From Bacteroidetes bacterium HGW-Bacteroidetes-8 (GTDB lineage Bacteria > Bacteroidota > Bacteroidia > Bacteroidales > UBA932), in contig PHCZ01000007.1 in the NCBI GenBank assembly GCA_002840895.1, positions 1 to 64,000 of the forward strand: DNA of 64,000 nucleotides, read 5' to 3'. Below the pieces are notes generated by a model. The model searched no databases. It had not been told where the DNA came from and worked only from the letters and a program-made list of their open reading frames with translations. Shown piece after piece: positions 8,915-58,912 of the stretch. Both the position numbers and the translations under genes were made by a program. The first letter of the stretch is position 1, and each line of letters opens with the position of its first letter.

Positions 8915-8944
8915 TTAATGATGATTTTTAATGTTTTTTCTAAA

Positions 8945-9553: not shown

Positions 9554-9560
9554 TATATCT

Positions 9561-9974: not shown

Positions 9975-9995
9975 TGGACTTTATTAAATTTAGTG

Positions 9996-10003
9996 CAAAT
10001 ATA
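9996..10003 (-). promoter_or_regulatory. Candidate -7 box for the Rrf2-YceI-porin operon
   Basis: On the minus strand this reads TATATTTG, an exact TAnnTTTG match, 22 bases before the Rrf2 start codon. I do not see a clear TTTG at the -33 position. Its place suggests the Rrf2 protein could bind here and autoregulate, though no operator palindrome is obvious. Confidence 0.5.
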
Positions 10004-10073
10004 GATAAAAAATATAAATCCTATAACATTGGTAGGATAATTTAAGAAAAAAAAAGAGTTTCTGTATCTGGAT

Positions 10074-10796: not shown

Positions 10797-10850
10797 CTGA
10801 ATATTTTACTTTAAAATGTTGGTACAGATAATAATCTGGTTGAATATATA

Positions 10851-11927
10851 TTACTTAAAAAACACAAGATTGATGTCTACAAATTCATCGGTAGAGATTA
10901 TCTCAAATGAGCATTTATTGTCATATTCGCAGTTTAACCTCTCCTTAACATTAGTAATTCCTGTGTTTGTCCCAGAACTGTTTTCAGGTATGGAGTCAAC
11001 CCATTTGCCGCTGTTTTTTACACTTATTGTGATTCTATCTTTATCATAAAAGGAGGTTATATAGACCTTTAGGGGCAATTCACTTGTCTCCATTCCGTGT
11101 TTAACTGCATTTTCAACAATTGGGTAGAGAATTGCAGGAGGAACCATCAAGGTTTCTGTTCTCGGATCTATATTTATAAAGAACTCAAGATTGTGTTCAA
11201 AACGTATTGATTGGATATATATATAGTGCTTAATGAATGAAATCTCCTTCTTGAGCTCAATGCGGGAGCTCTCTTTATAAGTAAGGGTATATCTAAGGAA
11301 ACTTGCAAGTTCATATATTATCAACTGGGCTCTGGAGGGGTCTTCATCCACCATTGCAGATATTGAGTTGAGGGAGTTGAACAAAAAATGGGGGTTAATC
11401 TGATTTTTGAGTGCCTCCATTTTAGCTTTGAGAGCATTATAGAGAGCTCTCTCCTTATCTTCCCTCTCAATCTTCCAGCGATAGAAAAGATTTATAATAA
11501 AATACGAAGCACACCAAAGAGCAAGAAGGATGAAAATTCCTGTAACCCTTTTTGCAAATGAGTTAATCGTTATCTGCGATATGGCAGATATGGGGTAGTC
11601 GTAGTATAGAAGGGTGAAGAGAGTGTCAGACAGATACCATAAAACAGACGAAACTAAAGCAGCAGTTGTAATTATTGTGATAGAAAACGCAAGAGAAAAT
11701 CTGTTTAAGGAGACCTGTTTAAAAAGATACCTCAGCAGGGATGTAATTGCCAATGGAATTATAAAATTTGAGATGAAGACCTTAAGAACATCACTTGCAA
11801 AAAAGTCGGCAGGAGAGTAGAGAATTGCCCAGACAACGCCAAATAGAAACCACCCGGAGATGTTCAACTTCCAAAAGCTAATCTTCTTAGAGTAGATGTT
11901 ATTGAAGATGTTATAGTTGCTATTCAC
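10851..11927 (-). CDS. LytS/YehU-type sensor histidine kinase
   Basis: A 358-residue kinase. About four transmembrane segments occupy residues 22-150 without a large extracytoplasmic loop. The His-kinase domain contains the phosphoacceptor His180 in QINPHFLFNSLNS. The ATPase region has ILYPIVENAVKHG (N box) and SGTNTGITNVKERL (G box). The lack of a large sensor loop suggests it senses a membrane or intramembrane signal, or works with a partner protein. The exported beta-sandwich protein immediately upstream (24 bases) is a candidate partner. Confidence 0.92.
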   Translation of the reverse strand: MNSNYNIFNNIYSKKISFWKLNISGWFLFGVVWAILYSPADFFASDVLKVFISNFIIPLAITSLLRYLFKQVSLNRFSLAFSITIITTAALVSSVLWYLSDTLFTLLYYDYPISAISQITINSFAKRVTGIFILLALWCASYFIINLFYRWKIEREDKERALYNALKAKMEALKNQINPHFLFNSLNSISAMVDEDPSRAQLIIYELASFLRYTLTYKESSRIELKKEISFIKHYIYIQSIRFEHNLEFFINIDPRTETLMVPPAILYPIVENAVKHGMETSELPLKVYITSFYDKDRITISVKNSGKWVDSIPENSSGTNTGITNVKERLNCEYDNKCSFEIISTDEFVDINLVFFK

Positions 11928-11951
11928 GACTTTACACTACGAAGCTGGAGG

Positions 11952-12359
11952 TTAGTTGAAAATCCATTTAATATCACAGGTAGTGCTATCTTTTTTATCT
12001 CGGGGGGGGCCATAATGGAAGCAGAAAAAATAGTCTATACTTGTAGTTTGCTCAAGATATCTTGTGTCTCTCTCCAAAATTACAGCAATAGAAGAGTTAG
12101 AAGAGACATTGACCAATTTAGATTTGTATCTCCTGCACGAGAAGAGAAGGACGGAATTTGGGTTGATATCCTTAATGGTGTATCGTCCCTTTGAGTCTGT
12201 AACAACTACATCATCGCTACCCGGGAACATAATCTTTACCCCTTTTACAGGCGTGTGTTTAAGGGCATCTATAACAGTCCCGCTTACGGTGAAGTTTTGA
12301 GCAGAACAAATATGGATACTTGCTATAAGAACAAAAACAATAAAATATAGCTTATTCAT
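11952..12359 (-). CDS. Exported carboxypeptidase-regulatory-like domain protein
   Basis: A 135-residue protein with a signal peptide ending SAQN (about residue 21). One carboxypeptidase-regulatory-like beta-sandwich follows (residues about 22-95; FTVSGTVIDALKHTPVKGV, VVTDSKGRYTIKDI). The C-terminal 40 residues are unrelated and carry two cysteines (FFCFHYG, TTCDIKW). This domain is usually the N-terminal part of SusC-like receptors, so a free-standing copy is unusual. It is 24 bases upstream of the LytS-type kinase and may be a periplasmic accessory of it. That role is inference from position only. Confidence 0.7.
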   Translation of the reverse strand: MNKLYFIVFVLIASIHICSAQNFTVSGTVIDALKHTPVKGVKIMFPGSDDVVVTDSKGRYTIKDINPNSVLLFSCRRYKSKLVNVSSNSSIAVILERDTRYLEQTTSIDYFFCFHYGPPRDKKDSTTCDIKWIFN

Positions 12360-12450
12360 ATGTAATAAAAGTTATTCTTTCAATTGACAGGTTTTTGTAT
12401 CTATTAGACGAAAGATCTTTAAGGAATGTTGCACTAGTTTTGCACTAATT

Positions 12451-13560
12451 TCAGAAGCTATCTCCATTTTTTTTAGACAAGTCTAAAATCCTTATATCAA
12501 TCCCCCATAGTTTTGCTTTATATTCGATAAATTTCTTTAACCCATAATAACTCCAGTTTCTTAAAAGAAATGGGTCATTTTTTGCTCTCTGCTCTTTATC
12601 TGTTTGGTTTATAAGATTTATGTGCTTACACCTGTTTGCGACTGCATAGTCGACAAGCATTTTGGAATATGTGTGCAGTCGGGTTTTAATGTAATCTCTC
12701 TCTTTGTTGTGAAAATTTGAGATAGCCTGAAATTTTCTTTTGCGACCCTTACCTCCTGCAGAAAATTTAGAATTAACCTGAGCTCTTCTCATCGCAGCCT
12801 GTATCTGCAACCTGCGATGCATAAACTCCTCCCTGTTCCCGATATGCTTAACATCACCTTCAAAGTTGGCAATTATTGGAATCTCGGCCGAAAGTGATGC
12901 ATCCACAGATTTTGCATCATTCAAGAGAATCGTGTTAGCACCACATTTATAACTAAGCAACAAAAATAGCTTTCTCTTTGTATCGTCAATAAGAATTGAA
13001 GATTCACAAAGTTCGAATGTTTTACTAATACAACCTTCGAGCACCTTTTTATTATTGCTTCTGTCTCTCCCCAGAGTTATTCCAAAACGTATACCAAAGA
13101 GAGTAAATTCATAATGGTTCAGCTCCTGGTTCCACCTGAGACTCTTCATAGAGATTGAACTGAACGGGATAGGAGTATTGTTTTTATAGGTAAATAATGA
13201 ACAAGTTCCTTTGAAAAGTGCGGGTTTGAAGCAGCTGTACTTTTTTATGACGGTTTTCTGTAGGCAGTTTAATATATCTGTTGGCACCCTCCCCTTCATT
13301 CTTTCGGATAAAAGCACATAACCTGCAGAACCCTCTTTTACAGGCTCTCCTCTAGCACCTGTAATTCCAAGATCAATTTTTGACTTCTCTGTGATAAATT
13401 TGTAATACTTAAGTCTGTCAATACTATACAAATAGGATAACATCTCATTTGCACCGTTTACAATCAAATATCTCCAATTATATAGTTGACAGTATAACTC
13501 TCTCTTTACATTTTTATCATCTTCACAAATGTAAATCTCTAATCTTCTTGTCAAGGTCAT
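12451..13560 (-). CDS. Nuclease-dead Cas12f/TnpB homologue lacking the zinc finger
   Basis: A 369-residue protein with Cas12f/TnpB architecture. Residues about 130-205 resemble the family wedge region (PIPFSSISMKSLRW, FGITLGRDRSNN, CESSILIDD). Residues 238-300 match the RuvC helical part (IGNREEFMHRRLQIQAAMRR, then GKGRKRKF and NKERDYIKT), and 330-352 match FLLRNWSYYGLKKFIEYKAK. The active site is ruined. The RuvC-II Glu position (INLED in active relatives) reads INLIN with Ile317. The RuvC-I signature DLG is missing (VDASLSAEIP, 219-228). The protein ends at 369, before the CxxC zinc finger and the RuvC-III Asp. The other frames after the stop contain no zinc-finger remnant, so this is domain loss and not a single frameshift. 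No transposase or IS ends are near. Probably an RNA-guided DNA-binding regulator, with its guide RNA encoded just upstream. Confidence 0.85.
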   Translation of the reverse strand: MTLTRRLEIYICEDDKNVKRELYCQLYNWRYLIVNGANEMLSYLYSIDRLKYYKFITEKSKIDLGITGARGEPVKEGSAGYVLLSERMKGRVPTDILNCLQKTVIKKYSCFKPALFKGTCSLFTYKNNTPIPFSSISMKSLRWNQELNHYEFTLFGIRFGITLGRDRSNNKKVLEGCISKTFELCESSILIDDTKRKLFLLLSYKCGANTILLNDAKSVDASLSAEIPIIANFEGDVKHIGNREEFMHRRLQIQAAMRRAQVNSKFSAGGKGRKRKFQAISNFHNKERDYIKTRLHTYSKMLVDYAVANRCKHINLINQTDKEQRAKNDPFLLRNWSYYGLKKFIEYKAKLWGIDIRILDLSKKNGDSF

Positions 13561-13609
13561 ATTCGGTAGAACAAAACATCTATTTGGTTGAAAAAATATT
13601 TTTTGTATA

Positions 13610-13629
13610 TTAGTACTTAATTACTAACC
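13610..13629 (-). ncRNA. Inferred guide segment of the Cas12f-like guide RNA
   Basis: This is the stretch directly 3' of the scaffold end ATGCAGC, read on the minus strand and beginning GGTTAGTAATTAAG. In Cas12f and TnpB RNAs the guide follows the scaffold 3' end. The first 11 bases recur with a 5' TTTT flank in the second susC leader (54127-54137). Weaker matches lie in the leader of the adjacent susC: 8 bases at 18644-18651 with a TTTT flank, and 15 of 20 at 18608-18627 with a TTT flank. Guide length is a guess. The region is AT-rich, so the matches need a background test. Confidence 0.5.
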
Positions 13630-13735
13630 GCTGCATCTGCTCTGTAGGGTAATCTATTTTTGGGAATTGAAGGCCCGGTTTAAAGCAGTTTATGAGTGCA
13701 AATGCCCCACATTAAGGGCTCACAGCAGCCCCGGT
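13630..13735 (-). ncRNA. Candidate natural single-guide RNA scaffold (tracrRNA-crRNA-like)
   Basis: Read on the minus strand, the scaffold opens with hairpin GGGCT-GCTGTG-AGCCC (13731-13716) followed by TTAATGT. An 8-bp helix then joins GCATTTGC (13705-13698) to GCAGATGC (13640-13633), extended past one mismatch by CT/AG. The 3' end, ATGCAGC, can pair CAGC with the GCTG in the first hairpin loop, forming a pseudoknot. From memory, Un1Cas12f tracrRNA has GGGCTGCT...AGCC..TAATGT, and its repeat ends ATGCAAC and pairs with the hairpin loop in the same way. The match in sequence and topology is striking. Here the two parts are continuous, like a natural single guide. It lies between susD and the dead nuclease gene, on the same strand as both. 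Confidence 0.65.
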
Positions 13736-13738
13736 TTT

Positions 13739-13746
13739 AAAATTTA
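13739..13746 (-). promoter_or_regulatory. Weak -7-like box upstream of the guide RNA scaffold
   Basis: The minus strand reads TAAATTTT, one mismatch from TAnnTTTG. Initiation 6-7 bases downstream would start the RNA almost exactly at the GGGG hairpin. No -33 TTTG is seen. The alternative is that the guide RNA is processed from susC-susD read-through. Confidence 0.25.
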
Positions 13747-13798
13747 AATCACTCCACATAAGAGAGTTATTGTACCTCTTATGTGGATTGATTTTAAA
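13746..13798 (-). terminator. Strong hairpin after susD, without a T-run
   Basis: CCACATAAGAG (13754-13764) and CTCTTATGTGG (13776-13786) form a perfect 11-bp stem, extended by AAATCA/TGATTT past one mismatch. On the minus strand it is followed by AGTGATTTAAATTTT rather than a U-run, so it may be a weak terminator, an RNA-stabilising 3' end, or a 5' stem of the guide RNA. Other terminators in this window carry clear T-runs. Confidence 0.55.
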
Positions 13799-13805
13799 AA
13801 AGATG

Positions 13806-15329
13806 TTAGTCAATCAAAGGATTGTAGTCAGTTTCACGAATTGGTATCAGCCAGGTCCAGTTGTTGCCAAAGCTTGGATCTCTGGTAACTGCAAGAACAC
13901 TCACAAAATTACCTCCATCTGTAGGACTCTTTCTGTTTATGCTATCTCCCCAACGTTTGAGATCAAACCAGTCAAAACCCTCTCCCCAAAGTTCAAGAGC
14001 GCGATAAGTTTTTATCTCATCCAGTAGAGCAGTACCTGTTTTTGTACAGTTGTAGGTTAGATCTCTACCACTACTGTTGTTTAGTGCATTCATTGCGCTC
14101 TGTGAACCCGGGATATCATTTAGCCTATATTTTGCTTCGGCCTCAATAAGATACATCTCGGATGAGCGGAAGTGGTTAAGGTTGCCGACACCCGGATAGT
14201 CGATTGCCTTGAATTTAAATTGCATATATGCGTATGGAGAAGCTGTACTATATAGATCCGGATAAAGCTGAAAAGCTCTTGCCTTTAATGCAGTACCGGC
14301 AACACCTGTTGCAGTGGTGTAAGTGTAACCAGCAGGGTCTAAAAAGAGACCTTTTCTAATATCTGTAGCAGGAATCTTATCGAAAAGCTCTTTACTTATG
14401 CATTTAGGGTAGAGCCTTACATTACTTGAGTTTGAGTTATACCCGATATAGGCGTGGAATGAGTAGTAATAAAGATTCTCATCTACAGAACCAAAACTGC
14501 CCCATATCCATTCGCTATTAGGTGTATTAAACCCTGCCCTGTAATCATTTACAGACATTAACGGATACCCGTTTCTGGCATTGACAGCCATAGTAGAGGC
14601 TTTGGTGTAATCTTCCTTAGTTATCGCCGCTCTTGCATAAACTGCATAAGCAACATTTTTGTCGGGGTCGTAGTTATATTGCCTGCTCTTTCCGGAACTT
14701 GTGTAAAGAGTAATCGCATCATCCAAATCTTTATAGATTTGAGTGTATACCTCTGCAAGTGTAGAAAGAGGCATCTCGCCAGTAGACTCGTCAAGTCTTA
14801 AAACCAAACCGGGGGCAGCTCCGTTATTGGAATCTTTCCAACGGTTACAGTAAAGCTGAGATAACATAAAATAGGAGTATGCCCTGTAAGTAAGAGCCTG
14901 AGCTTTAACAAAATCTTTGTCTGCCTGAGCTCCAGTGGCTTTTTCTACATTCACAATAATAGCATTGGCATTACCGATGATTCTGTAGTAATAGTACCAG
15001 GGGTAGTATAGATAGATACTAGTTGTCACCTCCCTGTACTCTCCATTAATGATAGATGACCATCCGGTCAGGTTTACAAAGAAGTGATTCCCGGGATAGT
15101 TCCCATACCACATCTTTATAGTTCCCTCTCCGTTGAACCCCTGTGACTCCAGGTACTGCATAGTCATAAGTTTGTTTATGCCATTGATAGCCAGGGCAAT
15201 ATTCTCAACAGACTCAAATACGGTAGTTGTAGTGGTTGATGCTGTCGGTTTGGTGTCGAGGTAATCTTTGGAACACGAGCAAAGAGTCACAACACTCAGA
15301 ATAGTTAATATTTTGATTATTTTATTCAT
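13806..15329 (-). CDS. susD: SusD/RagB-family nutrient-binding outer-membrane lipoprotein (operon 1)
   Basis: A 507-residue SusD homologue. The lipoprotein signal ends LCSC with Cys19 as the lipidation site, followed by SKDYLDTKPTAS, a typical surface-export sequence. The helical TPR-rich scaffold appears in ALTYRAYSYFMLSQLYCNRW. The family C-terminal region has FRSSEMYLIEAEAKYRLND and LDEIKTYRALELWGEGFDWFDLKRWGDS. SusD acts as a lid over its SusC partner, capturing oligosaccharide or peptide. It begins 12 bases after susC. No glycoside hydrolase or peptidase follows in this operon, so the ligand is unknown. Confidence 0.95.
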   Translation of the reverse strand: MNKIIKILTILSVVTLCSCSKDYLDTKPTASTTTTTVFESVENIALAINGINKLMTMQYLESQGFNGEGTIKMWYGNYPGNHFFVNLTGWSSIINGEYREVTTSIYLYYPWYYYYRIIGNANAIIVNVEKATGAQADKDFVKAQALTYRAYSYFMLSQLYCNRWKDSNNGAAPGLVLRLDESTGEMPLSTLAEVYTQIYKDLDDAITLYTSSGKSRQYNYDPDKNVAYAVYARAAITKEDYTKASTMAVNARNGYPLMSVNDYRAGFNTPNSEWIWGSFGSVDENLYYYSFHAYIGYNSNSSNVRLYPKCISKELFDKIPATDIRKGLFLDPAGYTYTTATGVAGTALKARAFQLYPDLYSTASPYAYMQFKFKAIDYPGVGNLNHFRSSEMYLIEAEAKYRLNDIPGSQSAMNALNNSSGRDLTYNCTKTGTALLDEIKTYRALELWGEGFDWFDLKRWGDSINRKSPTDGGNFVSVLAVTRDPSFGNNWTWLIPIRETDYNPLID

Positions 15330-15341
15330 AATTTTAAATTT

Positions 15342-18300
15342 TTAAAGGTTTACATTAATCCCTACAGAGAGTATTCTTGCAGTAACAAATCCGTTGTCAC
15401 TAACTCCGGTAAATGATTGCTGAGGGTCCATACCTCTAAGTTTTGTAAATGTGGCCAGGTTTTCAATTGACATATTTACCGATACATTGTTGAGATCCAG
15501 CTTATCTGTTAACCTTTTTGGAAGTGTATATCCCAATGAGATGTTTTTAATTACAAAATAGGAAGCATCCATAAGGAATCTTGAACTAATTGCATCGTTA
15601 TAGGTGCTCAACTGATAATTTGCCACAGGAATCCCTTTAGGATCTATCCTGTTTGCAGAACTCTCTGTTACTCCCGAAGGAACTCCATCCCAGGCTTTAA
15701 GCAGATCTTTATGAAGAGAGTGTATGTTAGTTGTTACCTTCATATAATCTGTATAGGGGTAGTCCAGAGTTTTGCCTCCCAGTGAGTATGTGCACAATAC
15801 AGAGAGATCTAAATTTTTATAAGATAAAGATGTTGTTAAACTACCGAAAAGATCCGGAATAGCACTACCGCTCCAATCTTTCTTCGAGTAACTGGAGTTG
15901 GTTGAATAATTTTTATCATTTATGGTAACCAGCCACTGAGCAGGGAAAACTGTTTTACCCTCAACTGCTTCACCGATATAATACCGGTCTAAATCCGGCA
16001 GATAGAGTGAGTTCCCTGTCATTTGGTCTACCCCTGCAAATTGATACATCCAGAACTTATATCTGTCGTGACCCTCCATATATTTCTTTGTTCCGGAGAC
16101 AATACCGTTCAATCTGTTTTGTTCCGGCAGGCTCAGAATCTTGTTTTTCATATGAGTTGCCATTATGCCTACATTCCATCTGAAATCCTTTTTCTGAATA
16201 AGATCCATATCAAATGTGAGCTCAACTCCTCTGTTTGATACCGAGCCGAGATTCTTTTTAACTGTTGATTCTGCTCTCATTGTAGATGTAGCACCTGCAG
16301 ATAGTGGCAGATAGACATCAAAGAGAAGGTCTTTTGACTTCTTGTCAAAATACTCTACTGCAAGATTTGCTCTGTCGAAAAACCTACCCTCAAGGGCAAT
16401 ACCGAAAGAGCCGGCAGCCTCCCAGACCAGATCAAGAGCCTCGTTCTGAGACTTGTAGATAGCACCTCTGTTGCCGTTTTGATTCATAAAATACAGTGGC
16501 ATAAATGCGTGGAAATCTATTGCAGCGTTATCTGTTCCTCCATCATTCCCCACCTCTCCGTATGAGGCTCTTAACTTAAGAGTATTTATCTCATCTTTTA
16601 AAGACGCCATAAAATTCTCTCTGGTAATTACCCAGCTACCACCTACAGACCAAAAGTTACCCCATCTGTTTCCGGCAAAAAATTTTGATGAGCCATCCCT
16701 TCTTATTGATGCATCAAAAAAGTATTTATTGTCGTAGTTGTACCTGATTCTTGAAAGATAGCTCTCTGTTCTATAGTCTCTTTGATACCCATCAAGATCG
16801 GTGATGACGGTAAAATTAGTAAACTCCTTGTTATCGCCTTTGAATGTGATATTGGTTTTAAAACCAAACTGATAGACATAGTTATAGCTGAAGTTCTCGT
16901 GAGCAGCCAAAAAATCTATACTATGCTGGTTGAACTCTCTGCTCCAGGTGAGCATCTGTTGTAGAGTGTAGTTTTTATATCTTTCATTTGTCTTCATTGC
17001 TCTTCCGGTACCCATACCGTCTCCAATGATAGGATTTTGATAGCGCTGTCTTTCGGAGTTTCTCAGTGAAACATCGCCTCTTAGGGTAAAGGTAAATCCG
17101 TTCAGGAATTTTATATCTGCAAAGGCCTGGCTTGCAAGAGTATTACGAAATGTCTTGTCCATATCCAGATCATACTCCCAGATAACGTGTCTTCCTGCAA
17201 ATTGTGGTCTTGTGTGCATATCTCCACCGTCATACTGTCTGTTTCCGTTTTCATCCAAAATATACTCCCCAGTCTCCATATTATGCAGATAGACCGGATA
17301 AATAGGTGCAATGCTTCTGGCATACATAAATGGATTTGCAAATGAAGCTGCGTTATCTACAGGGCTTCCACTTGAAGAGTTTGATACCTGGTGAGATCCG
17401 GCAACTGTTATCCCGGTTTTGAACCAACTCTTAGGAGTTATTGAGATATTTGCTCTTGCTGTAAGTCTGTTAAAGTCAGAAGATTTTATATAGCCTTTCT
17501 CATCCAGATAGCCCACAGAGAAGAAGTAGTTGTGTTTATCGGAAGCTCCATCGCCAGATAGGACATAATCTTGTCTGTAACCCATTCTCTCGATAGCTTT
17601 AAACCAGTCCAGGTCGTCATACCCGGGACGTATTTTTGCGTTGGCAACCAACTTCCCGTTTGAATCAAACAGAGCATTTGCAGGTTGGTCATAAAGATTG
17701 TATTTCAGGTATGTAGGTATCAGAGTTGCAGTTGCCTGTGCGTTGGCAAGTGCCTGTGTAGGATATTGCGCAGGTTGATTTGTCATAAGACTGTTTCTGT
17801 AACCCTTCCACATAAGCTCCATAAAGTCGTCTGTACCAACTCTGTCATACTCTTTAAGACCTCTTGTAAAGACACCCTGATTAACACTTACCCTTACAGA
17901 TGTCTTCTCATTTGTCCCCCTTTTAGTAGTAATCATCACCACTCCGTTAGATGCCCTGTTGCCGAAAAGGGCACTTGAAGCTGCATCTTTAAGAATCGAG
18001 ACATTTGAGATATCTGCAGGGTTAAGGTCGGAGATATTTCCTCCGAATGGGACTCCGTCTATAACATATAACGGTGAATTTGATCCGTTTATGGAGGTGA
18101 ATCCACGAATTCTTATATTCGGGTCCGACCCAGGTTCTCCGTAAGTATTATTTACCTGAACACCTGCAGCCTGCCCCTCAATAACTGAGGCAACACTTGA
18201 TACTGCCCTTCTCTCGATAGCCTTGGTGTTTACGGTTGTAATTGACCCGGTAACCGACTCTTTTTTTGCGGTCCCGTAAGCAATCATCACAACCTCATCC

Positions 18301-18605
18301 AGGTTTAGGGCATCTGTTTCCAGTTGTGCATTTACGATAAGCCTGTTTCCGATTGGAATTTCTATGGTTTTATAACCAATGAAACTAAAGATTAAAGTGC
18401 CGTTTGCAGGCGCATTGATTACATATGTACCATTTTCAAGAGTTGAGGTCCCTATAGTGGTCCCCTTTAACTGAACAGATACATACGGCAGTGCAGCATT
18501 TGAACCCAACTCGGTTACGGCTCCCGTAACTCTGGTGTTCTGTGCTAACAGTATACTATTTGATATCAATAGTAGTACCGTAATTAGTAAAATGGTTCTT
18601 TTCAT
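15342..18605 (-). CDS. susC: SusC/RagA-family TonB-dependent transporter (operon 1)
   Basis: A 1087-residue transporter. A signal peptide (about 1-21, ending LLAQ) is followed by a carboxypeptidase-regulatory-like domain (about 24-105) and the SusC linker LDEVVMIAYGTAKKESVTGS. The plug (about 118-235) includes IRIRGFTSINGSNSPLYVID and ASSALFGNRASNGVVMITTK. A 22-strand barrel fills the rest. With SusD it takes up a bulky nutrient using TonB energy. No ECF sigma, anti-sigma or hybrid two-component regulator lies nearby; the adjacent regulatory candidate is the dead Cas12f-like gene. Its 5' leader holds two TTT-flanked partial matches to the inferred guide. Confidence 0.95.
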   Translation of the reverse strand: MKRTILLITVLLLISNSILLAQNTRVTGAVTELGSNAALPYVSVQLKGTTIGTSTLENGTYVINAPANGTLIFSFIGYKTIEIPIGNRLIVNAQLETDALNLDEVVMIAYGTAKKESVTGSITTVNTKAIERRAVSSVASVIEGQAAGVQVNNTYGEPGSDPNIRIRGFTSINGSNSPLYVIDGVPFGGNISDLNPADISNVSILKDAASSALFGNRASNGVVMITTKRGTNEKTSVRVSVNQGVFTRGLKEYDRVGTDDFMELMWKGYRNSLMTNQPAQYPTQALANAQATATLIPTYLKYNLYDQPANALFDSNGKLVANAKIRPGYDDLDWFKAIERMGYRQDYVLSGDGASDKHNYFFSVGYLDEKGYIKSSDFNRLTARANISITPKSWFKTGITVAGSHQVSNSSSGSPVDNAASFANPFMYARSIAPIYPVYLHNMETGEYILDENGNRQYDGGDMHTRPQFAGRHVIWEYDLDMDKTFRNTLASQAFADIKFLNGFTFTLRGDVSLRNSERQRYQNPIIGDGMGTGRAMKTNERYKNYTLQQMLTWSREFNQHSIDFLAAHENFSYNYVYQFGFKTNITFKGDNKEFTNFTVITDLDGYQRDYRTESYLSRIRYNYDNKYFFDASIRRDGSSKFFAGNRWGNFWSVGGSWVITRENFMASLKDEINTLKLRASYGEVGNDGGTDNAAIDFHAFMPLYFMNQNGNRGAIYKSQNEALDLVWEAAGSFGIALEGRFFDRANLAVEYFDKKSKDLLFDVYLPLSAGATSTMRAESTVKKNLGSVSNRGVELTFDMDLIQKKDFRWNVGIMATHMKNKILSLPEQNRLNGIVSGTKKYMEGHDRYKFWMYQFAGVDQMTGNSLYLPDLDRYYIGEAVEGKTVFPAQWLVTINDKNYSTNSSYSKKDWSGSAIPDLFGSLTTSLSYKNLDLSVLCTYSLGGKTLDYPYTDYMKVTTNIHSLHKDLLKAWDGVPSGVTESSANRIDPKGIPVANYQLSTYNDAISSRFLMDASYFVIKNISLGYTLPKRLTDKLDLNNVSVNMSIENLATFTKLRGMDPQQSFTGVSDNGFVTARILSVGINVNL

Positions 18606-18607
18606 TT

Positions 18608-18651
18608 GGAAAGTAATTAGTTATTAAGTTAGTGGGTTATTTATACTAACC
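18608..18651. promoter_or_regulatory. susC-1 leader with partial guide-RNA matches
   Basis: Two candidate sites lie within 50 bases of the susC start codon. On the plus strand, 18608-18627 matches 15 of the first 20 guide bases, mismatching at positions 3, 4, 13, 14 and 17; TTT precedes it, overlapping the start-codon edge. On the minus strand, 18651-18644 matches guide bases 1-8 (GGTTAGTA) and is preceded by TTTT. Neither is perfect and they lie in opposite orientations, so at most one is likely real. I found no clean TTTG/TAnnTTTG promoter in this 214-bp divergent region. Confidence 0.3.
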
Positions 18652-18819
18652 AAAATTCTCTCTATTGCCTCTTAAAAAAAACAGAAATATGACCAAAGCC
18701 ATCAATTATTATTTAAAACGCTCAAAAACCTATTTGAAAAACACAAGAGTGTTTCTACCCAACAGTCGTAGGAAATAGCTAAGTTTGCGGTCTTATTAAA
18801 ATAAAATTTACTACTGAAT

Positions 18820-21219
18820 ATGAAATCACCCCTTTTACCTTATTTGAAGCCAATCATTAGAACTATTGCAGCCCTCACTATGATATTCCTGTTTTCATTC
18901 ACAGCAACTGCACAAACATCAATTGCAGGAAGAGTTACACAGGGGGCAAGTACAACACCTGCAGAGTTTGCATCTGTAGTAATAAAGGAGCTTGATAACA
19001 GAGTAGTGGCTGGCGCAATGACAGATAACAAGGGAAGATTTACAATTGCCAATATAAAAAGCGGGGAGTATCTTCTCCAGGTGAGCTTTATAGGCTACCG
19101 CACCTATAACAGGCAAATGGTACTGAATGAGGGAAAAAATGTTATGCAAGAGCCTGTTAACCTTCAAGAGTCCGAAGATATACTGGGAGAAGCGGTTGTT
19201 ACAGCCTCATATTCACAGAAACAGTCAGATATTGAGCGTACCAAAATAAATACGGCAGGGTCTATTGCAGCATCAAGAGGCTCAATTACAGATCTGTTAA
19301 AATCTGCCTCATCTGTTACAATTGACAATGATAATAAAATATCAATAAGAGGAAATTCAAACATTCTTCTCCTAATAGACGGGATTCCAACAACAGTTGG
19401 ATCTTTGGACGGGATTCCCGCATCTGCAACAGAGAGTATAGAGATTATTACAAATCCGGATGCAAAATATGATTCAGAAGGTACAGGTGGGATTATAAAT
19501 GTCATAACCAAGAAAGAGAAGAGAGATGGTATTTCGCTGATCTCAACCTTAAACTATGGCCTTTACACCAGGGTAAACGGAGACATTATGACTGCGTATA
19601 ATAAAAATGGGTGGAGTTTGGCTCTTAACTACTCGGGAAAATACCATCAGGAGAGAATTCAAAGTGATCTCTTCAGGAATTTTTATTCAACATCTGCATC
19701 AATAGAGCAGAACATAACTTCGAGTCAAAAACAGAATACCAATATCGTCGGGTTTAATGCCATTAAAAGATTTGAATCTGGAGATCTCCTTACACTTAAC
19801 CTTAAATATATGCACCCGGAGATACTCAACAGCCAGGATATTACTAATATAAACACCTCAATTGGGGGAGGAAATTTTATAAACAGAGTGAATGAGTTTC
19901 ACCACATAAGAACAACTGGGGAGGCAATTGGAGAGTATAAAATGGTGCTTAAAAAGGATAAAAGTGATATAACTTTTAGGGGCTCATTTTCAAGGACAAA
20001 GGGGGAGAGGCCGGGTGAGTATTACGAAGACGGAGTTTTCGTTCAAAAATCTGACGGAGGTGGTCATCCTACAAATTTTTCATTCCAGAGTGACTATGCT
20101 CATAAGATACAGGGTTTCGGACTTGCCGAGGGAGGTTTGAAATTTTTCTCCAGGGGAAATACTTTTAAAACAGAAACTTACCTATTTGATCAAACTTCAC
20201 AAAGTTGGATTTACAATACTTTCTTGAGTAGCGATCTAACTCACGATGAAGATATTCTCTCTGGATATCTCAATTTTTCATCAGCTTCAAACAAGAGTTT
20301 TACATATAAAATAGGAGTAAGGGCAGAGTATAGCACATCGTTTTTTAGAATTATTGAAAACCCCGAAGAGATATACACAACCAAGCTTTTTATATCACCT
20401 ACTCTCTTATTCAAACAAAATCTCTCCAATAAATCCTCTTTAGCTTTCAGTTTTACAAGAAGAATTACCCGCCCCACTTATCCTCAAATAAATCCATATG
20501 TAAATATGATTGACAAGACTGTTTTTGAAACAGGAAATAAAAATCTGAAACCCGAAGAGGTGAGTAAATTTGAGATTGCATATAATTTAGGCAATAACGG
20601 ACACTCTTTAATGGCGTCACTATATCTAAGCTCCGCGACAGATTTTATAACTCAGATATCCTCATTGTATGACCAAAACTCCCTTATGCTCACATATGTC
20701 AATGGAGAAAAGAGCATAAAATCCGGGATTGAGATAAATGGCAGGTATAAATTCTCCTCCCTTTTCGCGATGGGCATAAACAGTAATCTCTATTACGGTA
20801 AAACTGACGGGGAGACAAATAACTTTGATCTTACCAGCAGCAGCGTAATGTTCTCTGGCAATTTCATAATCAATATTACGCCATCAAAAAAAGGAGATAT
20901 TTCCCTTCAATATTTTTACACATCTCCTCAGACCTTTCCTCAGTTCAAAACCAAATTTGTTCACTATATGGATATTGGATACAAGAGAGGTTTAATAAAA
21001 GATAAATTGAGCGCAACAATATCTGTTTCTGATATTTTTAATACTAAAAGGTGGGATATTGAGTCAGACAACAGAATTTATTCACTCAAAAACAACAGTA
21101 AGAACCAAAGTCGTGTGGTGTGGATTGGTCTGACATTTAATATAAACAAGATGCAGCTCTCCAAGCCTGCCAAAAAAGATGAAGAGGCAGACGGAGCTCT
21201 CATAAAACTTGGTTTGTAG
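18820..21219 (+). CDS. TonB-dependent-receptor-like outer-membrane barrel protein
   Basis: A 799-residue protein of the same general family as the gene at 110-2566. It has a signal peptide (ending ATAQ, about residue 32), a carboxypeptidase-regulatory-like domain (about 34-115), and a plug (ITDLLKSASSVTIDNDNKIS, LLLIDGIPTT, IEIITNPDAKYDSEGTGG). The barrel includes the conserved SFTRRITRPTYPQINPYVN and TGNKNLKPEEVSKFE. It is divergently transcribed from susC-1 across 214 bases. No SusD partner is present. The substrate is unknown. Confidence 0.85.
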   Translation: MKSPLLPYLKPIIRTIAALTMIFLFSFTATAQTSIAGRVTQGASTTPAEFASVVIKELDNRVVAGAMTDNKGRFTIANIKSGEYLLQVSFIGYRTYNRQMVLNEGKNVMQEPVNLQESEDILGEAVVTASYSQKQSDIERTKINTAGSIAASRGSITDLLKSASSVTIDNDNKISIRGNSNILLLIDGIPTTVGSLDGIPASATESIEIITNPDAKYDSEGTGGIINVITKKEKRDGISLISTLNYGLYTRVNGDIMTAYNKNGWSLALNYSGKYHQERIQSDLFRNFYSTSASIEQNITSSQKQNTNIVGFNAIKRFESGDLLTLNLKYMHPEILNSQDITNINTSIGGGNFINRVNEFHHIRTTGEAIGEYKMVLKKDKSDITFRGSFSRTKGERPGEYYEDGVFVQKSDGGGHPTNFSFQSDYAHKIQGFGLAEGGLKFFSRGNTFKTETYLFDQTSQSWIYNTFLSSDLTHDEDILSGYLNFSSASNKSFTYKIGVRAEYSTSFFRIIENPEEIYTTKLFISPTLLFKQNLSNKSSLAFSFTRRITRPTYPQINPYVNMIDKTVFETGNKNLKPEEVSKFEIAYNLGNNGHSLMASLYLSSATDFITQISSLYDQNSLMLTYVNGEKSIKSGIEINGRYKFSSLFAMGINSNLYYGKTDGETNNFDLTSSSVMFSGNFIINITPSKKGDISLQYFYTSPQTFPQFKTKFVHYMDIGYKRGLIKDKLSATISVSDIFNTKRWDIESDNRIYSLKNNSKNQSRVVWIGLTFNINKMQLSKPAKKDEEADGALIKLGL

Positions 21220-54080: not shown

Positions 54081-54126
54081 CTATGCTCAATAATATTTGA
54101 GAAAACTACATAACCAAAAATACTTA

Positions 54127-54137
54127 AATTACTAACC
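54127..54137 (-). promoter_or_regulatory. Candidate target site of the Cas12f-like guide RNA in the susC-2 leader
   Basis: On the minus strand this reads GGTTAGTAATT, identical to the first 11 bases of the inferred guide (13629-13619). Directly 5' is TTTT, resembling the T-rich PAM of Cas12f and TnpB relatives. After one extra T the target continues AAGTA, as the guide does, so pairing beyond 11 would need a bulge. The site is inside the transcribed leader, 13-23 bases before the ATG. A bound complex would block elongation from the upstream promoter. Confidence 0.4.
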
Positions 54138-54150
54138 AAAATTTAACTAA

Positions 54151-57100
54151 ATGAAAAAAATTAAACTACTCTTTACAGGGCTGTTGCTTGTTGTGGCTGT
54201 TGGCTTCGCCGGCGCTCAGAACATACAGGTAACAGGTACTGTTACTGATGCAAAAACAGGGGAACCTGTTGTTTATGCATCTGTTCAGCTGAAAGGTACT
54301 GTCACAGGTGCAGCAACTGATTTAATGGGAAAATACACCATCAGTGCTCCATCTACAGGTACTCTAGTATTCAGTTTTATCGGGTACACAATTGTTGAGG
54401 TTCCTATCAACGGACGCACAGTTGTTAATGTTGCCCTCTCACAGGATGCAGTTCAATTGGAAGATGTTCTGGTAGTAGCCTATGGCACAACCAGGAAAGA
54501 GTCTTTCACAGGATCTGCAGAGGTTATTAAATCAGAAAAAATCGAGAGAAGAACTGTTTCCAATGTAACTAAAGCAGTTGAGGGTCTTGCAACAGGAGTA
54601 CTTGTTACTTCCGGTTCCGGCCAGCCGGGCTCTGCTTCTAGTATTATTATCAGGGGTTACGGTTCTATTAACGCATCTACAAATCCTCTTTATGTAGTGG
54701 ATGGAGTTCCTTACGATGGTAGCATCTCTGCAATCAACCCTGCGGATATAGAGTCTATGACCATTCTTAAGGATGCTTCTGCCGGTGCCCTTTACGGGTC
54801 ACGCGGAGCTAATGGTGTTGTTATGATCACTACCAAGAAAGGGGCAAGAGATGGTGAGAGAATCAAAGTTAACTTCAGGAGTGTTTGGGGTGTAACTTCA
54901 AGAGCTTTCCCTTCATATGAGCTTCTAGATGAGAAGGGATGGATGGAGTATCAGTTCCAGTCATTCAAAAATGAGGAGATTATCTTTAAAGGGGCAAACC
55001 CTGCAACTGCAGGAGTTACTGCTATCCAGCAGATGCTTACAGGACCAAGCAAAATATTTGGTCTTAATGAGCAGTATAACCCATATAACTATCCTTTGGC
55101 TCAGTTGTTTGATACATCAACAGGCAAAATCAGGGACGATGCAACTCTACGTTACAACGAAGATTGGATGGAGACTGTTTCGGCTAGTAACCCTGTAAGA
55201 CAAGACCATATACTTACCGTTACCGGAGGGTCGGATAAGGCAAAATATATGGCATCTGTTGGTTACCTAAATGAGAATGGTATCCTTCAAACAACAGCGT
55301 TTAAACGTTACTCGGGAAGAGCTAATGTAGATGCTCAACCAAACGAGTGGCTTAAATTCGGGCTTAATACCAACTTTGCTCAGACAACCAGCAACTTCCT
55401 TAATGCAACAGGATCTGCCACCTCTAACGTGTGGTACTCTTGTATGCTAATGGCTCCGATATATCCTGTATATATTCTGGATGCTGCAGGCGTGCCTGTG
55501 CTTGATGCAAACGGTAAGAAGCAATTTGACTATGGTAACAATCGTGCTTCAGGTGCTCAGCAAAACTACAATAGTGTTGCAACACTCTATGACGACAAAT
55601 TCAAATCTGTAAACTCAAGTGTGAGCGGAAGAACTTATGTTGAGTTGCTGGACTTTAAGACAGGACCTATCCGTGGTCTTAAATTATCTGCAAATCTTGG
55701 ATTTGACTTTATTAACCAAATGCAGCATAATTACGAGAACCCTTATTTCGGAAATGCAGCAGGTTCTGCAGGTAGAGCATATAAGTATAGTATGAACACT
55801 TTAAGTAAAACCTTTAACCAACTTATATCGTTCAAACGTACTTTCGCAGATAAACACAACTTGGACGTTCTTGCCGGTCACGAAAGTTATTCATACCTGT
55901 ATAACTATATGATGGGTGCAAAATCGGGCTTTCCATTCGGTGGCCTTTATGAGTTGTCTGCAGCTGCAACAGTTATTACTGCTAACTCATACGAAGATAA
56001 CTACACAATTGAGTCGTATCTCTCTCGTTTGAATTACAACTATGCAGATCGTTACTACATTTCCGGTTCATTCAGAAGAGACGGATCATCTCGTTTCTAC
56101 AGTGAGAACAGATGGGGAGATTTCTGGTCAGTAGGAGGTAACTGGCGTATCAGTCAGGAGTCATTTATGCAGGGAGTTTCCTGGATTAACAATATGAATG
56201 TAAAGGCCAGTTTCGGAGTACAGGGTAACGACGCAGTCGGTGGATTGTACCCTTGGCAGGCACTTTACGACCTTGGTTTCCCTAACGCAGGAAGAAACGG
56301 AGCTGTTGTTGCATCTATTGAGAATACAAACCTTAAGTGGGAGAAAAACGAAAACCTTAATATAGGTATTGATGCCAGAATGTTCAACAGAGTATCTATA
56401 TCTGCTGAGTGGTACAAAAGGGTTACCAAAGATATGCTTATGGCCTATCCTTTGGCAATGTCAACCGGCTTCATAAGCTACAACAAGAACATTGGAAGTA
56501 TGCAGAATACCGGTTTTGAGGTATCTATCTCAGGTGACATCGTTACTAACAAAGATCTTAGATGGACAATGACTGTAATGGGTTCAACCGTTCAGAATAA
56601 AGTTCTCAATCTTGCAGACAAACCTGAAATTACAAGCGGTAACTATATCACAAAAGAGGGTGAAGTTCTCAACTCATTCTATCTCCCAAGATCTGCCGGT
56701 GTAGATCCTGCAACAGGTTATCAGTTATACTGGGTATGGGATACAGTAGATGGAGTACGTTCGGAGGAGTATATAACAGCAGATAAAGCAAAAGCAGCTG
56801 CTTCAAGAGTAATCGTGGGTAACCGTATGCCTAAACTGTACGGCTCTATCAACAATGATTTCAGACTTTTCGGCGTTGTTGACCTTAGCGTTCTTTGTAC
56901 CTACTCACTTGGAGGCAAAATTCTTGACGGTCTCTACGGAAACCTTTTAGATCCTCTATATCAAGGTAACTCACTATCTGCACACCTCTTAAGGGCTTGG
57001 CAAAAACCTGGTGATATCACCGATATTCCAATTCCTCAGCTTGGTGCCAATACCCAAACATCAGACCGTAATCTTACAAATGCATCCTTCTTCTCAATTA

Positions 57101-57306
57101 AGAATGTAACTCTTGGTTACTCTTTGCCTAAGAAATGGATGACCAAAATTGGTGTTGAGAGCGTTAGAATATCTGCAATTGCAGACAACATCCTTTTGTT
57201 CTCGTATCTGCAGGGTATGAACCCTCAGTATAACTTCTCAGGAGGAACCGACTATGCATACACTCCTACTCGTTCAATATCATTAGGATTGGATATCACT
57301 TTTTAA
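54151..57306 (+). CDS. susC: SusC/RagA-family TonB-dependent transporter (operon 2)
   Basis: A 1051-residue transporter. A signal peptide ending GAQN, a carboxypeptidase-regulatory-like domain (about 24-105), and the linker LEDVLVVAYGTTRKESFTGS are followed by the plug (about 118-230; IIIRGYGSINASTNPLYVVD, ASAGALYGSRGANGVVMITT). The barrel continues to the C-terminus. With its SusD partner it imports a bulky nutrient. Downstream genes include an M64-type peptidase lipoprotein, suggesting a protein or glycoprotein substrate. Confidence 0.95.
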   Translation: MKKIKLLFTGLLLVVAVGFAGAQNIQVTGTVTDAKTGEPVVYASVQLKGTVTGAATDLMGKYTISAPSTGTLVFSFIGYTIVEVPINGRTVVNVALSQDAVQLEDVLVVAYGTTRKESFTGSAEVIKSEKIERRTVSNVTKAVEGLATGVLVTSGSGQPGSASSIIIRGYGSINASTNPLYVVDGVPYDGSISAINPADIESMTILKDASAGALYGSRGANGVVMITTKKGARDGERIKVNFRSVWGVTSRAFPSYELLDEKGWMEYQFQSFKNEEIIFKGANPATAGVTAIQQMLTGPSKIFGLNEQYNPYNYPLAQLFDTSTGKIRDDATLRYNEDWMETVSASNPVRQDHILTVTGGSDKAKYMASVGYLNENGILQTTAFKRYSGRANVDAQPNEWLKFGLNTNFAQTTSNFLNATGSATSNVWYSCMLMAPIYPVYILDAAGVPVLDANGKKQFDYGNNRASGAQQNYNSVATLYDDKFKSVNSSVSGRTYVELLDFKTGPIRGLKLSANLGFDFINQMQHNYENPYFGNAAGSAGRAYKYSMNTLSKTFNQLISFKRTFADKHNLDVLAGHESYSYLYNYMMGAKSGFPFGGLYELSAAATVITANSYEDNYTIESYLSRLNYNYADRYYISGSFRRDGSSRFYSENRWGDFWSVGGNWRISQESFMQGVSWINNMNVKASFGVQGNDAVGGLYPWQALYDLGFPNAGRNGAVVASIENTNLKWEKNENLNIGIDARMFNRVSISAEWYKRVTKDMLMAYPLAMSTGFISYNKNIGSMQNTGFEVSISGDIVTNKDLRWTMTVMGSTVQNKVLNLADKPEITSGNYITKEGEVLNSFYLPRSAGVDPATGYQLYWVWDTVDGVRSEEYITADKAKAAASRVIVGNRMPKLYGSINNDFRLFGVVDLSVLCTYSLGGKILDGLYGNLLDPLYQGNSLSAHLLRAWQKPGDITDIPIPQLGANTQTSDRNLTNASFFSIKNVTLGYSLPKKWMTKIGVESVRISAIADNILLFSYLQGMNPQYNFSGGTDYAYTPTRSISLGLDITF

Positions 57307-57334: not shown

Positions 57335-58912
57335 ATGAAAAAGATAATAACATTATTTGCAGTAGCAGCGCTTCTTGTATTAAGCTCTTGTGAAAAGGAG
57401 TATCTTGATACAGTTCCTACTGATTCGGTTTCGGGTAAATTGATCTTCAACAATACCGAAAGTGCAATGGTTGCCCTTAACGGTATTTACAGAGCTCTAT
57501 ATTTGCCCAACAGCACTTGGTTTGGCACAACGGGTAACGTTCAGCAAAACTTTGGTATTGTTTCGCACAATATGGTTGCAGACCTTATGGGTGAAGACTA
57601 TGTACAGGCAGAGCAGGGTAACGGATGGTTCTATTTTGACTACAGATATGATGTACGTTCAAGATATGCCAGCGCATCCTGGAGATGCTATGGCCTTTGG
57701 AATTTCTACTATAAGATTATTACAAATGCAAACTACGTTTTAGCCTCAAGAGAGACTATAGGTGGAGATCCTAATAAGATTAAAAGCGTTGTAGGACAGG
57801 CTCTTGCATTAAGAGCATACGCCTATTACTACCTTACTCTCTTTTTCCAGCACACATACAAAGGAAATGAGAGTGCTCCGGGTGTTCCACTCTATACAGA
57901 ACCAACACTTATAGGTGCTCCAAGAGGAACACTTAAAGATGTATATGACCAGATAACTGCAGACCTTACAGAGGCTACAACTTTGCTTAAAGCTGCCAAG
58001 GATGCCGGTGTTGCCAGAGCACATAAATCTCAGATTGACTACAATGTAGCAAAAGCAATTCAGGCGAAAGTATTCCTTACAATGGAGAACTGGAGCGGAG
58101 CTGCAACTGCTGCCGCCGAGGCACGTCAGGGATATGCTCTTCTGTCTGATGCAGCTTTATACTCAGGATTCAATGACATTAAACTCTCATCAGTTCTTTG
58201 GGGTGGTGAAGTTATTGCTACTGAGGCTATTTCAGGTGGTTGGGGGACATTCTTCTGCCACGTAGACCCGGGTAGCACACCTGCAGTTCAAACTGCAAAC
58301 GGATATGGTGTAACCTCAAGGAAGTGTCTTGACTCTTGGTTATACAACCAGATTCCGTCATCTGACAAAAGACTTCAGTGGTGGAATGTTGCTGTTGCAT
58401 CTCCTTCAAGCTCAGGCCCTAATAAGAGTCACGCACAGTTTAAGTACAAATATAAAAACATCAGTGACTACACAGGTGACTATATCTATTTAAGAGCAGA
58501 AGAGATGTTGCTTATTGAGGCAGAGGCAAGAGTGCGTTTAGCTCAATATCCTGCTGCAAGAACGCTTCTTCTTGAGCTTGGCGCTGTTCGTGACCCGAAT
58601 ATGGCTACAAGGCTCTCTAACCGTACAGATGCTGCTACATATAACAGCGATACTCATGGAGCTTTTGTTACCATTATGGATGAGATTCTATTCCAGCGTC
58701 GTATTGAGCTTTGGGGTGAGGCAGGTCGTCTGTTTGATATAAAGAGACTTGGTCTTGGATTTACCAGAGACTATGCGGGTACAAACCACTCTCAGCTTAT
58801 TAAGACTATCTCTACTGCTCCAAAATCTAAGGAGTTTGTTCTCCCTATTCCACAACAAGAGTTTGACGGAAATGAGAATATGGACATTGAGACAGACCAG
58901 AACCCTCTATAA
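57335..58912 (+). CDS. susD: SusD/RagB-family nutrient-binding lipoprotein (operon 2)
   Basis: A 525-residue surface lipoprotein. The lipobox ends LSSC at Cys19, followed by EKEYLDTVPTD, a strong surface-export sequence. Family features are VVGQALALRAYAYYYLTLFF, YLRAEEMLLIEAEARVRLAQ, and the C-terminal DEILFQRRIELWGEAGRLFD IKRLG region. It starts 28 bases after susC-2. It caps the SusC barrel and binds the incoming ligand, whose nature is unknown. Confidence 0.95.
   Translation: MKKIITLFAVAALLVLSSCEKEYLDTVPTDSVSGKLIFNNTESAMVALNGIYRALYLPNSTWFGTTGNVQQNFGIVSHNMVADLMGEDYVQAEQGNGWFYFDYRYDVRSRYASASWRCYGLWNFYYKIITNANYVLASRETIGGDPNKIKSVVGQALALRAYAYYYLTLFFQHTYKGNESAPGVPLYTEPTLIGAPRGTLKDVYDQITADLTEATTLLKAAKDAGVARAHKSQIDYNVAKAIQAKVFLTMENWSGAATAAAEARQGYALLSDAALYSGFNDIKLSSVLWGGEVIATEAISGGWGTFFCHVDPGSTPAVQTANGYGVTSRKCLDSWLYNQIPSSDKRLQWWNVAVASPSSSGPNKSHAQFKYKYKNISDYTGDYIYLRAEEMLLIEAEARVRLAQYPAARTLLLELGAVRDPNMATRLSNRTDAATYNSDTHGAFVTIMDEILFQRRIELWGEAGRLFDIKRLGLGFTRDYAGTNHSQLIKTISTAPKSKEFVLPIPQQEFDGNENMDIETDQNPL

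Follow-up and report, generated by a model that had tools for sequence, protein, structure and literature searches.

A nuclease-dead Cas12f lineage without a linked sigma factor as a candidate RNA-guided repressor of susC genes in a Bacteroidales genome

Nuclease-dead Cas12f proteins (dCas12f), and the idea that they regulate genes under RNA guidance, are already known. Here we describe a 369-residue member encoded in the window, by which we mean the whole 64,000-nt stretch analysed (positions 1 to 64,000 of contig PHCZ01000007.1, assembly GCA_002840895.1), taken from the 2.9-Mb genome of Bacteroidetes bacterium HGW-Bacteroidetes-8 and referred to as contig C10 of genome G000 in the comparisons below. 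The protein is encoded next to its own guide RNA (gRNA) and a susC-susD operon (susCD1). We propose, with a probability of roughly 0.6, that it represents a branch of dCas12f that lacks a recognisable sigma partner and acts as an RNA-guided repressor of a regulon of susC genes. As expected from its family, dCas12f would bind the guide RNA that is present in one copy immediately ahead of its gene; the 16-17-nt guide, nearly the reverse complement of a susC leader motif, would pair with that motif at a near-fixed distance from the start codon, beside a T-rich flank resembling a target-adjacent motif (TAM). The complex would open an R-loop between promoter and start codon of the target susC and block RNA polymerase, with lowered transporter expression as the probable outcome. 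At loci of the window's type (the window, L052, L053 and L054) the guide-RNA level may track susCD1 transcription, because the guide RNA follows susD1 and no separate promoter for it can be recognised; in that case one importer system would restrain others.

PADLOC assigned the 369-aa open reading frame (ORF) to Cas12f (E=1.1e-52), and the best phmmer match in the Protein Data Bank (PDB) was 9n9c, 'Nuclease-deactivated Cas12f' (E=2.2e-57), followed by the Cas12f chains 9nzo/9nzr (E=3e-40), in agreement with the Cas12f/TnpB-like protein proposed in the initial annotation of this DNA. Bit scores against the PDB were 198 for dCas12f, 142 for Cas12f, 97 for a chain named Transposase and 70 for the best chain named TnpB. 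When the columns of an alignment to 9nzo are assigned by eye, Ser (DASLS) stands in place of the RuvC-I Asp (GVDLG in 9nzo) and Ile (NLINQ) in place of the RuvC-II Glu (QMERL in 9nzo), matching the degraded RuvC-I motif and the Glu-to-Ile change reported earlier. The initial annotation had called for these motifs to be aligned with those of homologues: both residues, which we take to be catalytic, are absent in 20/20 aligned homologues. The chain ends at 369 aa, similar to 9n9c (365 aa) and unlike the Cas12f chains of about 506 aa, and the Pfam family Cas12f1-like_TNB has no match anywhere in the genome; the initial annotation had seen no zinc finger or RuvC-III in the sequence. Homology to 9n9c over nearly the full length, together with the loss of the RuvC Asp and Glu, places the protein in the nuclease-dead Cas12f family; Pfam gave it no name (only BAR_4, below cut-off), and its match to NCBIfam guided_TnpB also fell below cut-off. 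Two other classes were rejected: type V-F CRISPR-Cas12f, since RuvC is not intact and no CRISPR-like repeat family was found in 11900-19000, the stretch searched, as the initial annotation also had it; and TldR by origin from TnpB, since the best matches by PADLOC and phmmer, rather than by a tree with TnpB, are to Cas12f. The reported lack of a transposase near dCas12f agrees with our reading of the ORF lists, from which six ORFs were run through Pfam; insertion-sequence ends were not searched for. The adjacency of susC and susD on the same strand was confirmed by Pfam.

Homologues are sparsely distributed, with matches in 9/299 genomes of the family, 3/393 of the order and 8/395 of the phylum (own genome counted each time). 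Twenty loci were compared, the window and 19 fetched ones, with two loci each from genomes G133 and G602. A sigma-factor ORF lies directly upstream of dCas12f at 7/7 loci of the L064-L070 group and at 0/12 other fetched loci, as far as the fetched flanks reach (one side is short for L054-L057), and the window's contig has no sigma-70 region 2 match; the sigma profile of this flank survey was built from the plus-strand ORFs of 15 out of 30 sigma loci, in a genome with 37 Sigma70_r2 matches. In an unrooted tree, the seven sigma-linked and 13 sigma-less loci are separated by one branch, with bipartition support of 100/99. The neighbourhood survey recommended initially thus yields a split of 7/7 against 0/13 between the two sides of the tree, and both the absence of an adjacent sigma factor and the separate lineage conjectured from it are upheld. 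A profile of the seven linked sigmas scored at best 74 bits in the eight dCas12f-positive genomes of the genus, 70 bits in the 11 of 17 dCas12f-negative ones searched, and 71 bits in the own genome. In two sigma-linked genomes the same profile reached 348 and 391 bits, both sigmas being part of it, and held-out linked sigmas scored 97-296 bits versus 61-72 for the best of 15 own-genome sigmas compared. These scores point to no recognisable cognate sigma of the linked type elsewhere in the genome; a partner may have diverged. The dCas12f of the sigma-linked locus L067 matches 9n9c at E=1.2e-194 and the adjoining sigma matches 9n9q chain C, named RpoE, at E=7e-114, and the known solved system is therefore the sigma-linked relative of the window system. 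Across six close dCas12f pairs dN/dS is 0.06-0.08, a sign of purifying selection; therefore the gene is not decaying.

Viral contigs yielded no dCas12f homologue, and the 13 records of a plasmid collection and two of a phage collection are distant, some of them labelled TnpB or transposase, with identities no higher than about 32% among the matches listed (10 plasmid, 2 phage). Two of the relatives have CRISPR-like arrays. At L063 (G361:C4:122500-142400, positions 8600-14330), a dead Cas12f homologue is accompanied by a three-repeat CRISPR array (36-nt repeats, 66-nt spacing), which adjoins an AAA/TniB-like gene overlapping a transposase-like gene with rve and Mu-transpos_C domains, an arrangement reminiscent of CRISPR-associated transposons. 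At L060 (G110:C157:1-20000, positions 10245-11901), a dead Cas12f homologue is followed by a three-copy CRISPR-like array, with two near-identical tracr-like blocks 296 nt apart, beside DNA methylase genes.

The guide-RNA element (13613-13731, minus strand) lies between susD1 and dCas12f, where it had been noticed from the sequence, in a block conserved in nine loci of the genus. The gRNA is upstream of dCas12f in 9/9 of these, not downstream as in the sigma-linked systems. The scaffold, which presumably resembles the Un1Cas12f1 single-guide RNA, comprises two stems, a variable third stem and a pseudoknot of GCUGU with GCAGC or ACAGU. Over the nine sequences 97.5% of pair cells are standard pairs, 0/500 shuffles reach the pairing or covariation score, and sliding the partner by 1-3 columns lowers pairing to 24-54%; these statistics are favourable to the structure because it was drawn from the same nine sequences. 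By covariance model, the window scaffold (97.2 bits, itself one of the nine training sequences) is single copy in the genome, and the scaffold is present in 8/8 dCas12f-positive and 0/15 dCas12f-negative genus genomes, the latter being 15 of 17. Outside the training set it was found just downstream of dCas12f in L061, L062 and 5/7 sigma-linked loci (L064, L066-L069), at only E=0.15 for L064; the scaffolds of L063, L065 and L070 were recognised by eye, and Rfam found nothing in the window. The scaffold ends in AUGCAGC, or mostly AUACAAC in sigma-linked loci, and the guide start is placed after this end because the sequences diverge between lineages beyond that point. The first 16 nt of the guide are identical in 8/9 genus copies and altered in L059 (GGTTAGTAATTTAGGT). 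Judged by the Bacteroidota promoter consensus, L055-L059 carry a TANNTTTG element 48-61 nt before the scaffold, with the full TTTG-spacer-TANNTTTG in L057 and L059, and the four loci of the window's type have no TANNTTTG promoter within 160 nt upstream of it. The 95-nt stretch with the hairpin after susD1 folds at -27.6 kcal/mol (ViennaRNA), and the other three loci of this type show the inverted repeat as well. As a separate observation, L057 (G133:C5:1-15000) holds a second dCas12f and gRNA copy in one genome, with an identical 16-nt guide, and a MarR-family regulator follows there in place of susCD.

Some susC 5' leaders contain a motif to which the guide GGTTAGTAATTAAGTAC is antisense. Genes of the susC family were collected via TIGR04056 and their starts set with profile-fixed frames, giving 96 leaders in four genomes: 30/33 in G000, 10/13 in G133, 40/47 in G064 (six left-out rows were not fetched, one had no N-terminus) and 16/18 in G214, which lacks dCas12f. 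In G000 the best antisense match is 15/16, in the leader L195 on contig C11 (AGTTAGTAATTAAGTA, preceded by TTTA), and the best sense match is 11/16. Among 3000 shuffled guides, none reaches this best score, six attain the mean and 21 have as many leaders at 13/16 or more; 0/2000 sets of shuffled leaders reach the observed mean or maximum, and the leader mean is 10.10 versus 9.27 (best 12) for 45 non-susC genes of the window. G133 has four leaders at 14-15/16, where none of 3000 shuffles reaches four at 13/16 and one reaches the best; for G064 with its own diverged guide, the mean is reached by one of 3000 and the number at 13/16 by 24. Ten of the 96 leaders match at 13/16 or better, eight from dCas12f-positive genomes and two from G214. 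All ten sites lie 12-15 nt before the chosen ATG, nine are preceded by TTTT or TTTA, and sense-strand best matches are only 10-11/16. Apart from the guide itself, no perfect site for the 14-mer GGTTAGTAATTAAG exists in the genome, and the L195 leader is its only site with a single mismatch. For the predicted RNA duplexes, the energy is -20.5 kcal/mol with L195 and -17.9 kcal/mol with susC2, and 0/300 shuffles reach the best. By eye, TAACC(A/T)AAA recurs about 13-17 nt before the start codon in many susC leaders of all four genomes.

The predicted site at susC2, GGTTAGTAATTTAAGT preceded by TTTT (54122-54141, minus strand), matches the guide exactly over 11 nt and forms 16 pairs with one bulge; it stands outside the ten best sites because its ungapped score is 12/16. 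A susC2 promoter, TTTG-N18-TAACTTTG, is predicted from the consensus at -100 to -71, and the site, being downstream of it, would lie in the transcribed leader. A like site is present at the same-locus susC of G111, G186, G180, G133 and G122 (82% identity or more) and at a more distant susC of G152 (42%). In G064, an operon of the susC2 type (55% identity) precedes dCas12f; its leader, GATTAATAATTTAGAT, has three mismatches to that genome's own guide, each G to A, with which an RNA G can wobble. Upstream of susC1, GGTTAGTA preceded by TTTT falls within a 15-bp block (GAATTTTGGTTAGTA) that does not vary among four of four loci of the window's type; this is the longest invariant run upstream of susC1, with shorter ones in the leader and close to the presumed promoter. 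G000, G111, G186 and G180 each have exactly two TTTTGGTTAGTA sites, 8/8 of them upstream of susC1 or susC2, and of the seven sites in the remaining four dCas12f-positive genomes three are at the susC2 locus; away from susC lie one of two sites in each of G122 and G152, and both in G064. L135 and L141 (in G122 and G152) hold a common intergenic TTTTGGTTAGTATTTAAGTG site downstream of a gene for 914-920 aa, with no adjoining susC. As a method check, the guides of two sigma-linked loci were matched to sites upstream of the sigma gene at the same locus, 209 bp away in L067 and 169 bp in L068, in sense orientation and preceded by G, with 1-2 mismatches in 14; for the other 7/9 loci tried, no intergenic guide site was found within 20 kb. 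The initially proposed link to susCD uptake is supported in a modified form: the best matches are other susC leaders in trans (54122-54137 and C11), not chiefly the adjacent operon.

The antisense, start-proximal geometry suggests a roadblock or an antisense block and would be unsuitable for initiating transcription of the gene from the guide site. The initial annotation had inferred an RNA-guided regulator of nutrient uptake without an adjacent sigma factor, acting either as a repressor or by recruiting polymerase another way. The dead Cas12f, its own guide RNA, selection on the gene and the susCD link agree with such a regulator, and the sequence data favour a repressor; polymerase recruitment is disfavoured because the leader sites point away from susC and the susC2 site is downstream of the predicted promoter. 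Genomes without dCas12f have the leader motif too, which suggests that the motif came first and that the guide adopted it. At about even odds, we suppose that one domesticated guide addresses a set of susC genes via this pre-existing start-codon leader motif, perhaps at both DNA and mRNA level, as an RNA-guided analogue or successor of control by FopS-type small RNAs (sRNAs) and opposite in sign to the sigma-linked activators.

Several results weigh against repression of a susC regulon. Since the leader motif occurs without dCas12f, it has another function, and a match alone is no proof of regulation: in G214, leaders match at 16/16 and 14/16, with 0, 21 and 8 of 3000 shuffles reaching the best, the mean and the number, and in 15 of the 17 dCas12f-negative genus genomes 5/9 TTTTGGTTAGTA sites are at susC leaders. 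The maximum in G064 is only 13/16, reached by 247/3000 shuffles. Dinucleotide-preserving shuffles, run only on earlier, partly mis-called start codons, reach the G000 best in 3, the mean in 65 and the number at 12/16 or more in 20 of 999; for G133, 7 of 999 reach the best and none the mean. The ten best leaders are not independent, forming about five or six gene groups by their N-termini and being partly orthologous, and the L194 match among them rests on a doubtful start codon. The T-rich bases before the sites may reflect merely A-rich leaders. At susC1 the perfect match spans only 8 nt, in the orientation opposite to the leader sites. Genome-wide, a guide 11-mer with one mismatch is not enriched (66 matches versus 91 for a reversed control), so that raw counts do not carry the case, which depends on position, strand and leader context; of its five exact sites, one is the guide and one the susC2 leader, those on C8 and at C11:62728 are in or before unrelated genes, and that at C14:90293 is within an ORF. 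The four scaffold pairs with two-sided changes are reached by 42/500 shuffles, and a structure predicted from a two-row alignment has a mean pLDDT of only 35.

A role at the RNA level, in which the guide anneals to the translation initiation region of susC mRNA and keeps ribosomes out while dCas12f protects or presents the RNA, is unlikely on balance. It would account for the antisense sites just before the ATG at the ten best leaders, for the strong predicted duplexes at two own-genome leaders and, as for a general leader element, for a motif kept without dCas12f. It fits less well with a scaffold and protein akin to 9n9c and the Cas12f family, which we take to bind DNA, with the TAM-like bases before 9/10 best sites, or with the sense orientation of the susC1 site, which precludes pairing with mRNA. 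It is nevertheless the main rival, because a report on FopS sRNAs in Bacteroides (PMC11697453) gives the start-codon regions of several susC mRNAs as natural antisense targets, with translation of SusC-like transporters repressed by pairing near the start codon.

Activation through an unlinked extracytoplasmic function (ECF) sigma factor, after the manner of dCas12f-RpoE, appears improbable, more so than an action on mRNA. The closest solved relative is an RpoE-bound dCas12f, the genome has sigma factors in number (the Sigma70_r2 matches above), and the susC1 site is in sense orientation; against this, a sigma of the linked type is absent from 8/8 dCas12f-positive genus genomes, the leader sites point away from susC at 12-15 nt from the start codon, and the recognised sigma-linked targets (2/9 loci, L067 and L068) lie much farther upstream, in sense and preceded by G. 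Slightly less probable again is that the guide-leader match is a by-product, in which case AT-rich susC leaders share a TAACC element and the post-scaffold sequence is conserved for another reason, as 5' untranslated region of dcas12f. An element that occurs without dCas12f, leaders of 73% AT and the dinucleotide shuffles that reach the G000 mean (65/999) speak for it, but the G000 and G133 best scores are reached by at most 1/3000 shuffled guides and, in G000, by no shuffled-leader set, sense matches are poorer, and the offset is narrow. Decay into a functionless Cas12f remnant, which the initial annotation had named as one outcome that would overturn its view, could explain the missing catalytic residues and C-terminus and the patchy presence (9/299 family genomes), but is very improbable given the low dN/dS, the gRNA kept in 8/8 dCas12f-positive genus genomes and the 20/20 homologues that are likewise dead.

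Repression of a susC regulon by a sigma-free dCas12f can be set beside four known systems. A 2025 preprint reportedly describes RNA-guided transcription by sigma-linked dCas12f (dCas12f-RpoE; PDB 9n9c, 9n9m, 9n9o, 9n9q). The two systems share a dead Cas12f homologous over nearly its full length, a related gRNA scaffold and an occurrence in Bacteroidota, and both are linked to susCD, a link that we assume for dCas12f-RpoE. Unlike it, the window system, on the other side of the tree, is without an adjacent or recognisable unlinked RpoE, has its gRNA upstream rather than downstream of dCas12f, and uses guide sites that are start-codon-proximal, antisense and mostly T-preceded, with the 8-nt susC1 site in sense. 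Assignment to the dCas12f-sigma class was rejected, since an adjacent sigma, a recognisable cognate sigma elsewhere and a downstream gRNA were all lacking. Cas12m (type V-M) is a CRISPR immune effector of another Cas12 lineage and in this differs from the window system. It is described as a DNA-binding, non-cutting effector that can act as a roadblock (PMC11013384); binding without cutting and a possible roadblock would be common to both, here as a prediction. TldR represses with guides as short as 6 nt (PMC13418256); the window system resembles it as a dead RNA-guided protein with a short guide, predicted repression by DNA binding and a target in trans, and is unlike it in that the protein is nearer Cas12f than TnpB and one guide fits several genes. 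The FopS/GibS sRNAs of Bacteroides thetaiotaomicron share with the guide an antisense match to several susC genes around their start codons, but where FopS has 14 paralogues of about 65-70 nt and no Cas protein, here one gRNA is tied to dCas12f; a FopS-type identity was rejected, the antisense geometry being present but the element being single copy within a Cas12f gRNA. A literature search with most subscription journals and bioRxiv preprints outside its coverage found no paper on sigma-linked or sigma-less dCas12f. To our knowledge, this sigma-free lineage, whose gRNA lies upstream and whose guide fits several susC leaders, is a new variant, and we make no claim that it is unpublished. If the proposal holds, dead Cas12f would serve regulation in two opposite ways, recruiting sigma in one lineage and acting as a blocking factor for a regulon in another, and a natural CRISPR-derived guide would control several genes via one common motif rather than one cognate target. 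Bacteroidota select among dozens of nutrient importers, and an RNA-guided layer would top their ECF/anti-sigma and sRNA control. Now that its scaffold and guide boundary are mapped, the compact 369-aa effector offers a convenient starting point.

Table 1. Features of the dCas12f locus and of its predicted targets in the window.
Feature	Position	Strand	Basis or remark
dCas12f (nuclease-dead Cas12f, 369 aa)	12451..13560	-	ORF, PADLOC, phmmer, RuvC alignment, dN/dS
Guide GGTTAGTAATTAAGTAC, immediately after scaffold end GATGCAGC	13613..13629	-	Boundary where L061/L062 and sigma-linked gRNAs change in sequence
Guide-RNA scaffold (stem 1, stem 2, variable stem 3, pseudoknot GCUGU with 3'-end GCAGC)	13630..13731	-	Covariance model
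Strong hairpin in the gap between susD and guide RNA (terminator or processing stem)	13746..13794	-	ViennaRNA fold
susD1, adjacent	13806..15329	-	Pfam
susC1, adjacent	15342..18605	-	Pfam
Weaker antisense match (12/16), susC1 leader	18615..18630	+	Low confidence
Seed site GGTTAGTA preceded by TTTT, upstream of susC1, sense	18644..18655	-	46 bp before ATG
Predicted susC2-leader target GGTTAGTAATTTAAGT preceded by TTTT, antisense	54122..54137	-	13 nt before ATG
Putative TAM TTTT at susC2 site	54138..54141	-	Function inferred
susC2, predicted regulated gene	54151..57306	+	TIGR04056 / ORF
susD2, after susC2	57335..58912		ORF list

Directly downstream of dCas12f, the window encodes a small, secreted-looking protein (11952-12359, minus strand), nearly all of which is made up of a CarboxypepD_reg-like domain; the same small protein occupies the same place in L052, L053 and L054.

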